Source: a bacterium
Lineage (GTDB): Bacteria; RBG-13-66-14
Assembly (NCBI GenBank): GCA_035528375.1
Contig: DATKYS010000021.1
Location: 1-22,608 of the forward strand
Direction of reading: 5' to 3'
Length of the DNA: 22,608 nt
Each line of letters opens with the position of its first letter. Position 1 is the first letter of the stretch. Position numbers and translations under genes: made by a program. The notes under the pieces were generated by a model. It made no database searches and was not told the DNA's origin. It saw nothing but the letters and a program-made list of their open reading frames with translations. Positions 6,885-22,250 of this stretch are shown in pieces.

Positions 6885-7179
6885 CGTAGGGGCGACCGTC
6901 CACGGTCGCCCGCGGGCCGACCTAAACGGCGCGCCGTCGGTCGGCCCCTACATCATCGCAAACGGGGTGAGGGCAAGCGGAGGGGATTAAAATCCCCGCC
7001 GTACATTTTGGCAAACAGTGGTGGATAACCAAACGGGCGGGTGTGGACACCCGCCCCTACGTCATCGCAATAGGCGCGATGTAGGGCGGCCCCGTGGGAT
7101 GCATCCCCTGCGGGCCGCCGCGGAGGGGATTTGCCGGGGGCATAGCTCGCTTCGCTCGGTTAAAATCCCCGCCTTACAT
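6885..7179. repeat. Dense hairpin repeat block upstream of the recombinase
   Basis: The gap 6861-7308 is almost entirely repeats: GTAGGGGCGACCGT/ACGGTCGCCC followed by a GGCCGACC arm with GGCGCGCC and its partner, ending CTACATCATCGCA (6885-6960); AGGGGATT/AATCCCC (about 6979-7005); GGGCGGGTGT/ACACCCGCCC ending CTACGTCATCGCA (7034-7069); a GTAGGGCGGCCC element (about 7081-7120); and a nested copy with the CATAGCTCGCTTCGCTC insert (7121-7179). Open frames running through this block are translated repeat DNA. Confidence 0.85.
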
Positions 7180-7308
7180 TTCGGCGCACGGCGGCCGCTG
7201 ACCTCGCGAACGGGTCCGGACACCCGCCTCAATACAAATTCACAACCGTCCGCCGGTCCGTCAAGGGCCGTCTGGCGGCGGTCGGCCCGGCGTATTACAA
7301 TGGCCCCG

Positions 7309-8523
7309 ATGGACGACCGGCCGCTTTCAGATTTCATGGAGGAATACCTCGCCGAGCTCGCGGTCCTGCGGGGCTTTTCCCCGCACACCCTGCGCGCGTA
7401 CCGGGGCGAGCTGGAAGCTTTCCTGAAAAACCTCTCCGCCTTCGGCGCGCCGGTGACCCTGGGCCGGTTCGTGGCGCTGGAGCTGCGGATTTACATGTCA
7501 CAGCGGCGGCAGGTGGGCGACTCGGACGCCACGCTGGCCCGGCGGCGGTCTGCGCTGGGCTCCTTCGGGAGCTGGCTGGTCAAGCGGGGCTTTTTGGGCG
7601 GCAACCCGGCGAAGTCCCTCCCCCGGGGGAAGGGGCTGCTCCGGCCGCTTCCCGGCGTACTCACGGTGGAGGAGGCGACGCGGCTGGTGGAGGCCCCGCG
7701 GGGTCCGCTGCCGCTGGAGGAGCGCGACCGGGTTTTGGGGCTCATGCGCGAAAAGCTGGAGCTCACCCCGGCGGTTTTGGCGAAGTTGAAGGTTGAAGAG
7801 GTGGACGCGGGCTACGGCGTGATTGACTCGGAAATCTGCCGGGAGCTGCGGCTGCCGGAACCGGTCCGCCTGGCGCTGGCGGGGTACGTGAAGCTGCGCG
7901 AAACCCTCGATCCGCAATCGGCCCGGCTCTTTCTCAACGGCAACGGCGGTCCGCTGTACGAGCGGGACATAGGGCCGGCGCTCGCCGGTTACGAAAAGGG
8001 GTGCGCGCTGCGGGCGCGGGATGTGGCGCTCTTGGAGCTGCTGTACGGCGCGGGCCTGCGCGTGTCGGAGGCGGCGGGCGTGATGGCGGGGGACTTCGAC
8101 TTCGGCCGGGGGCTGGTCACCGTGCGGGGGAAGGGGAAGAAGGAGCGGATCGTCCCCTGCGGTGAGACGGCGGCGGCGGCGATTTCAGATTACATAAAGC
8201 TGCGGGAGGCGCTCGCCCCAAAGTCCGAGCAGCTTTTTCTGAACCGCCGCGGCGGGCCGCTCACCGACCGCTCCGTGGACCGGCTGGTCAAGCGGTACGC
8301 CGTGCGGGCGGACATCGGGCGCGCCGTCTCGCCCCACGTCCTGCGGCACAGCTTCGCCACCCATTTACTCGAAGCGGGGGTGGACCTGCGGCTCATCCAG
8401 GAGATGCTGGGGCACGCGAGCCTGGACACGACGGCGGTTTACGCGCGGGTGGCGGTTGAGCGGTGGCGGGACGTTTACGACCGGGCGCACCCCAGGGCGC
8501 GGTTGCAGCAGCGGCTGCTGTAA
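7309..8523 (+). CDS. Xer-type tyrosine recombinase with internal duplication
   Basis: This is a tyrosine site-specific recombinase (404 aa from ATG 7309) of the XerC/XerD type, which normally resolves chromosome dimers in the cytoplasm. The N-terminal SAM-like core-binding domain spans about 6-100 (F-S-P-H-T-L-R-A-Y at 23-31). The catalytic set is complete: Arg251 (GLRVSE), Lys275 (RGKGKKER), His343 and Arg346 (SPHVLRHSF), His369 (LGHAS) and Tyr378. XerC/D proteins are about 300 aa; the surplus is a second, degenerate copy of the first half of the catalytic domain (137-229) ahead of the intact one (236-330). The closest part, 192-228 against 294-330, has 18 of 37 identical residues, while the degenerate copy lacks the Arg and Lys. 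No Shine-Dalgarno precedes 7309 or the alternative ATG at 7300. TACAAT at 7296-7301 could make 7309 a leaderless start. Confidence 0.9.
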   Translation: MDDRPLSDFMEEYLAELAVLRGFSPHTLRAYRGELEAFLKNLSAFGAPVTLGRFVALELRIYMSQRRQVGDSDATLARRRSALGSFGSWLVKRGFLGGNPAKSLPRGKGLLRPLPGVLTVEEATRLVEAPRGPLPLEERDRVLGLMREKLELTPAVLAKLKVEEVDAGYGVIDSEICRELRLPEPVRLALAGYVKLRETLDPQSARLFLNGNGGPLYERDIGPALAGYEKGCALRARDVALLELLYGAGLRVSEAAGVMAGDFDFGRGLVTVRGKGKKERIVPCGETAAAAISDYIKLREALAPKSEQLFLNRRGGPLTDRSVDRLVKRYAVRADIGRAVSPHVLRHSFATHLLEAGVDLRLIQEMLGHASLDTTAVYARVAVERWRDVYDRAHPRARLQQRLL

Positions 8524-8552
8524 ATCCCCTCGCCCACGGTCGGCTGTACGAG

Positions 8553-8822
8553 CGGGCGACCGTGGACGGTCGCCCCTACGGGACGGATTGACGGTGGGAC
8601 GTAGGGGCGGGTGTCTCCACCCGCTCGTCATTTTTTGAACAAATGTAGGACGGGGAATCCCTTCCCTGCCACGTTTATAAGGAAGCCCTCACCCCTGCCC
8701 CTCTCCCACAGGGAGAGGGGGGCTGCGCCAACCCTCACCCCGACCCGCGCCTTGCTGTTTGCAATGACGTAGGGGCGGGTGTCCACACCCGCCCGCGGGC
8801 CGATCGCATGTCGGCCCCTACG
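8553..8822. repeat. Repeat cluster downstream of the recombinase
   Basis: The gap 8524-8945 contains no gene I can support. It holds GGGCGACCGT/ACGGTCGCCC (8553-8580), a T-tailed GGGCGGGTGT-type element with imperfect arms (about 8600-8636, possible weak terminator for the recombinase), a decayed GTAGGACGGGGAATCC copy (about 8645-8672), a CCCTCACCCC/CTCTCCC/GGGAGAGGGG stretch (about 8687-8722), and a double element (8760-8822) beginning GCAATGACGTAGGGGCG. From 8823 to 8945 I see nothing recognisable. Confidence 0.8.
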
Positions 8823-9660: not shown

Positions 9661-9710
9661 TTTAAAGGGGGAGCCGGACGGCTCCCCACAACGGCCCGTA
9701 CCTCGCCGGT

Positions 9711-10083
9711 TGCGATGACGTAGGGGCGGGTGTCCACACCCGCCCGTTTTTTTCTAAGGCAGCCCTCACCCCTGCCCCTCTCCCACGGGGAGAGGGAAAT
9801 CGCGGGCCGACCTGAAGGTCGGCCCCTACGAGGTTGACGCGCGATTCACACCTTAGCCGTAGGGGCGAGTGTCCACACCCGCCCGTTTATTTCTAAGGTA
9901 GCCCTCACCCTGTTTGCGATGATGCAGGGCGGCCCCCCCGCGGGCCGCCGCGAAATGCGATGACGTAGGGGCGGGTCTTTAGACCCGCCCGCGGGCCGAC
10001 CTGAAGGTCGGCCCCTACGAGGTTGACGCGCGATTCACACCTTAGCCGTAGGGGCGGGTGTCCACACCCGCCCGTTTTTTTAA
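9711..10083. repeat. Repeat array with T-tailed hairpins
   Basis: The gap between the glycosyltransferase and the CBS-tailed gene is nearly all repeats. In order: GCGATGACGTAGGGGCG plus GGGTGT/ACACCC arms and a T7 tail (9711-9753), CCCTCACCCC/CTCTCCC/GGGAGAGGG (about 9763-9797), a double element (9801-9888), GATGCAGGGCGGCC/GGGCCGCCG (about 9920-9950), and a triple element (9957-10083) ending in a T-run. The 9711-9753 hairpin is a textbook terminator on the plus strand although no plus-strand gene lies just upstream. Confidence 0.85.
9801..10077. repeat. 88-bp near-perfect direct repeat, 189 bp apart
   Basis: Bases 9801-9888 recur at 9990-10077 with a single difference (A at 9868, G at 10057). 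Each copy holds the GGCCGACCT/AGGTCGGCC hairpin, a unique-looking 27-base stretch containing ACGCGCGATTCACACC, and the GGGTGT/ACACCC hairpin. This indicates a recent segmental duplication of a composite repeat. Confidence 0.85.
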
Positions 10084-21191: not shown

Positions 21192-22250
21192 ATGCCCGAC
21201 GACCGTGATCAGCGCAAAGAGCTCAAGCGGCTGACGGCGAGCGTCCGCTGCTCGGGGTGAGCGGGTAAGCTGGGCCCCGCGGCCCTGCGGCAGGTGCTGG
21301 ACGCCCTGCCCCCCGTCAGCGACAGGCGGCTGCTCTCGCCCATCCACCACGCCGACGACGCCGGCGCGGTGCGGCTTGGCGACGGCCGGGTGCTCCTGGC
21401 CACCACGGATTTCTTCACTCCGGTGGTGGACGACCCGGCGGACTACGGCCGCATCGCCGCCGCCAACGCCCTCTCCGACATCTACGCCATGGGCGCCGAG
21501 CCCATGGGGGCGCTCAATATCGCCTGCTACCCCGACCGGGACTTCCCGCTGGAGTATCTGATCGAGGTGCTCCAGGGCGGGCAGGAGAAGATGAACGAGG
21601 CCGGGGCCTTGCTCCTGGGCGGCCATACGGTTACCGACGTGGAGTTCAAGTACGGCCTGGCGGTGTTCGCCATCTGCCGCGAGGAGGAGCTCTGGCAGAA
21701 CACGGGCGCGGAGCCGGGCGACTTTATCGCGCTCACCAAGCCCCTGGGGTCGGGGATTCTGGCCACGGCGCAGAAGGCGGACGACCTCTCCCCCGAGGGC
21801 CTCGCGCGGCTGGTAGCCGTCGCCTCCCGGCTGAACCGCTACTCGGCGGAAATCATGCGGCAGTTCGGGCCCCGCGCCGTCACCGACGTCACCGGCTTCG
21901 GCCTGACGGGCCACGCCCTCGAGGTGGCCCGGAATTCCCAGGTCCGGCTGGAAATCTCCCTCGACGCCCTGCCCCTCATCTCCCCCGAGGTACTGGTCGC
22001 CATGGACGAGCGGCTCAAGCCCGGCGGGCTCTTCAAGAACCTGGAGGCCTACGCCGACGAGGTGACGGTCCGGGAGGGGGCGCCCGAGCGGCTGGTGCAC
22101 CTGGCCCACGACCCCCAGACCTCGGGCGGGCTCCTGTTCTTCGACGCCGCGCCCAAGTGGCCGGACTACGAGCGGGCCTTCGCCGCCGCCGGCGAGACAC
22201 TCTGGCGCATCGGAGAGGTCACCCGCGGAAGGGGGATGTACCTGAAGTAA
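21192..22250 (+). CDS. selD: Selenophosphate synthetase, selenocysteine-containing
   Basis: SelD makes selenophosphate from selenide and ATP, the selenium donor for selenocysteine and selenouridine. The true gene starts at ATG 21192 (GAGGAGGT five bases upstream) and reads through an in-frame TGA at 21258-21260, so the protein is 352 aa with Sec23. The context R-C-S-G-U-A-G-K aligns with E. coli G-A-G-C17-G-C19-K20: Sec23 replaces Cys17 and Lys26 matches Lys20. Downstream family motifs are present: D-D-A-G-A-V (55-60), T-T-D-F-F-T-P-V-V-D (71-80), I-A-A-A-N-A-L-S-D-I-Y-A-M-G (88-101), L-L-G-G-H-T (141-146), T-D-V-T-G-F-G-L-T-G-H (231-241) and D-P-Q-T-S-G-G-L-L (307-315). A start after the TGA would remove the catalytic residues. 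It implies that selA, selB and selC exist elsewhere in the genome. Confidence 0.93.
21280..21299 (+). promoter_or_regulatory. Candidate bacterial SECIS hairpin in selD
   Basis: Starting 19 bases after the TGA, an RNA stem pairs 21280-21283 with 21296-21299 and 21284-21287 with 21291-21294, leaving one bulged U (21295) and a three-base CGG apical loop about 27 bases from the TGA. A G in the first loop positions and a bulged U are features of bacterial SECIS elements. An overlapping alternative hairpin (21269-21288, loop CCGC) competes. Confidence 0.45.

Follow-up and report, generated by a model that had tools for sequence, protein, structure and literature searches.

The usual explanation for how Xer recombination is turned on when and where it is needed is that the gamma domain of FtsK touches XerD. 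In the two-protein scheme of E. coli, gamma contacts helix E (E119, Q123, I127) and helix H (E184, Y187, W188) of XerD, on a face that points away from the DNA and lies above the cleft thought to hold the C-terminus of XerC, and fusing XerC to a gamma peptide of nine residues suffices to stimulate recombination (PMC5052618). Some described systems depart from this FtsK-gamma-switched scheme. The single recombinases of XerS/difSL and XerH/difH are examples, XerS lacking the residues through which XerD contacts FtsK (PMC5357621), and Xer recombination by archaeal XerA, a lone recombinase of normal length, is FtsK-independent (PMC5357621). Moreover, the tyrosine-recombinase fold is used without catalysis by MrpR/YopR of prophage SPbeta and by SroF of phi3T, which are separate full-length repressors (PMC10516654).

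Here we describe an Xer gene encoded in a stretch of 22,608 nucleotides (hereafter, the window) from an uncultured bacterium belonging to one family of Candidatus Coatesbacteria, for which we analysed seven genomes (G000 to G006, G000 being the genome of the window). As in the E. coli-type XerC/XerD systems, the protein combines a core-binding domain with a catalytic domain holding the R-K-H-R-H-Y set, and there are two xer genes per genome. Unlike them, it carries about 100 extra residues that form a dead half-domain between helices E and F, and its family lacks FtsK gamma and has no canonical dif that we could find. In this line, the family departs from the E. coli scheme just as XerS/difSL and XerH/difH do, but with two Xer genes and an internal duplicated module instead of a single recombinase. 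The insert also sets the protein apart from XerA, whereas the difference with MrpR/YopR and SroF lies in the module being a half-domain embedded in a recombinase predicted to be active.

Architecture of the recombinase

The gene (Table 1), for which an alternative ATG exists at 7300, encodes a protein that matches PF00589 with an E-value of 5.6e-43 (147 bits against a cut-off of 27). The Pfam match to the SAM-like domain covers residues 11-94, and that to the catalytic domain begins no earlier than residue 233. The best NCBIfam model is XerC (TIGR02224, equivalog) with 287.5 bits, below its curated cut-off of 335 bits, a threshold that is likewise not reached by an ordinary-length relative from the same phylum (G012, 304.4 bits). 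Identity to ordinary bacterial Xers is roughly 40-46% across the shared parts. E. coli XerD, the best match in the PDB, aligns in two blocks separated by about 92 skipped residues (the blocks are query residues 10-142 and 234-390), and the crystal structure of XerA is also among the top structural matches. GC-rich palindromic repeats of a dispersed family (e.g., GTAGGGGCGGGTGTCCACACCCGCCC) fill most intergenic spaces of the window, including 6885-7236, 8552-8803, 9684-10081 and many others, and one such stretch lies directly upstream of the xer gene. Elsewhere in the window, a selenophosphate-synthase-like gene (21204-22250, plus strand) has an in-frame TGA at 21258-21260 (VRCSG-U-AGKLGP) that is probably read as selenocysteine.

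Table 1. Positions in the window of the xerC-like gene and its parts, and canonical dif sites of other Coatesbacteria families
Feature	Position	Strand	Basis or remarks
xerC-like tyrosine recombinase gene, 404 aa	7309..8523	+	ATG 7309 to stop 8523
N-terminal core-binding (SAM-like) domain, residues ~1-107	7309..7629	+	PF02899 at 11-94, AlphaFold model
First catalytic-domain helix, residues 120-131 (= XerD helix E)	7666..7701	+	Alignment, AlphaFold model
Copy 1, dead half catalytic domain, residues ~135-234	7711..8010	+	Sequence and predicted fold
Copy 2, predicted live first half of catalytic domain, residues 235-333; R251 8059-8061, K275 8131-8133	8011..8307	+	
Second half of catalytic domain, single copy; H343 8335, R346 8344, H369 8413, nucleophile Y378 8440-8442	8308..8520	+	
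Canonical dif sites (CCGATAATATATATTATGTTAA or close), Coatesbacteria families f2, f3, f5			L179, L180, L181, L182, L183

The Xer protein holds a true tandem duplication of half of its catalytic domain. Local alignment of the two copies gives a score of 100-101, compared with a maximum of 53-59 for shuffled sequences, and in the orthologue from the same genus (G001) the copies align over the whole 94-column unit with a score of 127 (shuffled maximum, 64). Searched with a profile of canonical Xer half-domains (62 sequences), the inserts of all six family members that carry one match at E-values from 1.7e-6 to 1.7e-9, beating all shuffles, and hhalign recognises the insert as a half catalytic domain with a probability of 96.9%. 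The preferred boundaries of the duplicated unit are ~135-234 and 235-333. An earlier note on this DNA, made from the sequence alone, had already proposed a degenerate tandem copy, and the self-alignment and the profile and hhalign matches bear it out; our recount on the translation agrees as well with its 18 identities out of 37 residues between 192-228 and 294-330. Just as it had claimed, the catalytic Arg is gone from the first copy, where R251 aligns with T153 and none of the orthologues keeps an Arg (the six family species have T, S, S, E, P and E), and the hairpin of copy 1 is shortened and devoid of the Lys. By contrast, copy 2 together with the tail retains the complete R-K-H-R-H-Y set that the note had seen there, in the form of R251, K275, H343, R346, H369 and Y378. 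DNA identity between the two copies of one gene is just 52-63% over the best-matching stretch, too low for a duplication of recent date or for conversion between the copies.

When 62 canonical Xers are aligned with the protein, the match breaks off after residue 131 and is taken up again at residue 230, nearly all of the 62 having a gap at positions 132-229. The module consequently lies inside the catalytic domain, inserted after its first helix, between helices E and F, and not between the arm-like and catalytic domains, where it had been placed before.

The full-length AlphaFold model (66 sequences) has a mean pLDDT of 90.7, and between residues 121 and 250 all blocks of ten residues lie at 90-97. 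Within the insert it shows helices at 135-150 and 154-159, strands at 171-174 and 178-181, a helix at 184-200 and a last helix that starts at 218 and continues into copy 2. This order (helix-helix-hairpin-helix-helix) is that of copy 2, so residues 135-234 are predicted to fold as a half catalytic domain. Of five models of the isolated insert, the best has a pLDDT of 88.8 and overlays XerD 126-236 with a Z-score of 11.5 and an rmsd of 2.4 Å over 104 of 104 residues, the other four models staying at 40-61, which calls for caution. The folds of MrpR/YopR and SroF also match the module (Z 6.3-8.6). Altogether, the insert is homologous to residues ~126-236 of XerD in both sequence and fold.

A second Xer in the same genomes

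Exactly two PF00589 genes occur in the genome of the window. The second one (G000:C130) is intact, of near-normal length and carries all six catalytic residues R-K-H-R-H-Y, and a second Xer gene with the six residues is also present in G002, G004 and G006. These four genomes therefore do not show the single xer gene that characterises XerS, XerH and XerA. In a phylogenetic tree, the insert-bearing proteins of the family form an XerC-like clade and their partners an XerD-like clade, both with support of 100/100 and on long stems (0.63 and 0.91, respectively). The tree points to the insert-bearing protein as the XerC-like partner by descent, beside a separate XerD-like gene, the deep XerC/XerD split itself being weakly supported (78/91).

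The loop between helices E and F is long and variable among the Xers of Coatesbacteria. The XerD-like second Xers of G004 (L049) and G006 (L052) have their own insert of ~100-130 aa in this same catalytic-domain loop. In pairwise, HMM and hhalign comparisons with half-domain profiles, the inserts of these two proteins score no better than shuffled sequences, and accordingly we do not claim a shared origin with the XerC module.

Distribution and selection

All six genomes of the family with a detectable xerC, which span four genera and have proteins 52-85% identical, carry the insert, and it is absent from the other Coatesbacteria families. A search with the copy-1 profile over 386 genomes gave E-values of 5e-27 or lower only in the family of the window; the next-best match (7e-13) falls on the ordinary half-domain of an Xer of normal length, and no genome outside the family carries the module. 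A genome-wide pattern scan returned 80 loci, among which long Xer forms came from three family genomes only. Scans with the single copy-1 sequence found no relative in viral contigs, and the best matches in plasmids were enterobacterial XerC of ordinary length. The longer form is thus shared among related genomes, and the open-access literature yielded no paper on an Xer, or any other tyrosine recombinase, whose catalytic domain is duplicated or has a pseudo form, in keeping with the previous statement that no described Xer with this arrangement was known.

Within the genus, dN/dS is 0.19-0.25 for copy 1, 0.26 for copy 2 and 0.33-0.44 for the N-terminal domain, so the module, with ratios no higher than that of copy 2, is under purifying selection. 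Across genera, no part of the protein diverges more than the module (33-35% identical), and the hairpin of copy 1 is missing in G005.

FtsK gamma and dif in the family

The FtsK gamma domain was found in none of the seven genomes of the family, although the FtsK motor is kept in six of them, so the C-terminal gamma that defines the XerCD-dif-FtsK system is not found here. All seven other Coatesbacteria examined have gamma, as do 169 of the 186 genomes taken from outside the family. The FtsK frames of the family end 0-6 codons past the motor, compared with the 95-106 codons, including gamma, over which those of the sister families run on. The FtsK locus of the window's genome (G000:C101:16074-16649, L169), with orthologues L160, L166-L168 and L170, is one that ends right after the motor. 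Among the 17 gamma-less genomes outside the family, none has the module. In the Coatesbacteria that retain gamma, the XerD residues touching it are hardly conserved, and a footprint of the lost interface is for this reason unreadable on XerD.

The dif core CCGATAATATATATTATGTTAA occurs exactly or with one arm mismatch in 4/4 genomes of family f3 and exactly in f5, and its arms match in f2. In the family of the window, the canonical core at up to two mismatches is absent from six of the seven genomes (G000-G004 and G006), in which a diverged dif is possible; G005 has a single one-mismatch match that overlaps the start of an ORF. Loose patterns of E. coli-type dif gave matches no better than reversed-pattern controls.

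Possible roles of the module

We propose that, in the ancestor of this Coatesbacteria family, an in-frame tandem duplication of ~100 codons (from helix F to helix K) would have placed a second half-domain in the loop that follows helix E. Catalysis would have stayed with the downstream copy, and the upstream one, which lost the catalytic Arg and Lys while keeping the fold, would now be a domain on the surface, anchored to the side that corresponds to the gamma-docking face of E. coli XerD. Given that the family lacks FtsK gamma, with the motor kept, and a recognisable canonical dif, the module may have replaced an external activation or synapsis contact. It would act as a built-in, non-catalytic protein-interaction surface that assembles or switches the XerC/XerD tetramer without FtsK gamma. 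The insert-bearing XerC is best read as catalytically competent, as predicted from its sequence. To the overall reading, a competent XerC whose Xer system has been rewired to work independently of FtsK gamma, with the dead half-domain as its synapsis or activation surface, we assign a probability of about one half. In this regard, the suggestion of the earlier note that the module could change synapsis or regulation gains support, since FtsK gamma and a recognisable dif were lost in the same family. Both the functional link of gamma loss to module gain and the contacts made by the module are what we infer from this setting.

Several observations go against this explanation. The module sits in XerC, whereas gamma acts on XerD in E. 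coli; the 17 gamma-less genomes found elsewhere do without it; and its sequence diverges more between genera than any other part of the protein. Moreover, gain and loss fall on one branch and count as a single event, which makes the association between module and gamma inaccessible to statistics. A more daring version is for us rather doubtful: once the gamma activator was gone, the Xer system would have internalised its own switch, an XerC-derived pseudo-catalytic half-domain on the side matching the gamma-docking face would trigger or hold the active XerC/XerD synapse at a changed dif, and the second Xer of some members may be gaining a comparable insert at that position.

The main rival is that the module is a tolerated passenger, an accident in a permissive surface loop without any regulatory role, so that XerC works as usual and the fold is selected only because misfolding would harm the enzyme. 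We take this as a real, if tentative, possibility. It would fit with the module being the least conserved segment between genera, with the loss of the hairpin in G005 and with the variability of the helix E-F loop in Coatesbacteria Xers, including the ~100-130 aa that the second Xer of G004 and G006 has there, and a constraint relaxed after the loss of FtsK gamma would allow the insert. Yet a passenger has to be reconciled with the presence of the module in all six members in which the gene was detected, with the low dN/dS within the genus and with a confident predicted fold.

An extension for DNA binding, by which the module would contact the DNA next to a dif that is longer or altered, with an effect on site recognition, seems unlikely to us. 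The fold does derive from a DNA-binding half-domain, non-catalytic tyrosine-recombinase folds such as MrpR/YopR and SroF are known as DNA-binding repressors (PMC10516654) and the canonical dif was not found in the family. However, helix E, from which the module is rooted, faces away from the DNA in XerD (PMC5052618), and it is precisely the DNA-facing hairpin that is shortened or missing in copy 1.

Far less probable is a one-protein system, raised in the earlier note, in which the extra half-domain would let this Xer act alone in place of the XerC/XerD pair. The protein certainly has two half-domains of the same kind, but copy 1 is a half domain only and has neither the catalytic Arg nor the Lys, and the idea is not supported because XerC-like and XerD-like clades are separate and a second, intact Xer is present. 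Finally, an assembly or binning artefact, conceivable for a metagenome-assembled genome in 144 contigs, is refuted by the same arrangement in six independently assembled genomes, with an open frame, synonymous-biased change and copies already so different in their DNA.

The architecture of the protein is new for an otherwise known enzyme, with a pseudo-enzyme module that has arisen through tandem duplication inside an active enzyme, and the control of Xer in this family has visibly changed. A lineage that keeps the FtsK motor and both recombinases, lacks gamma and bears a dead half-domain on the corresponding face of its XerC offers a natural experiment on Xer control, in which the resolution of chromosome dimers may be controlled in a new way.
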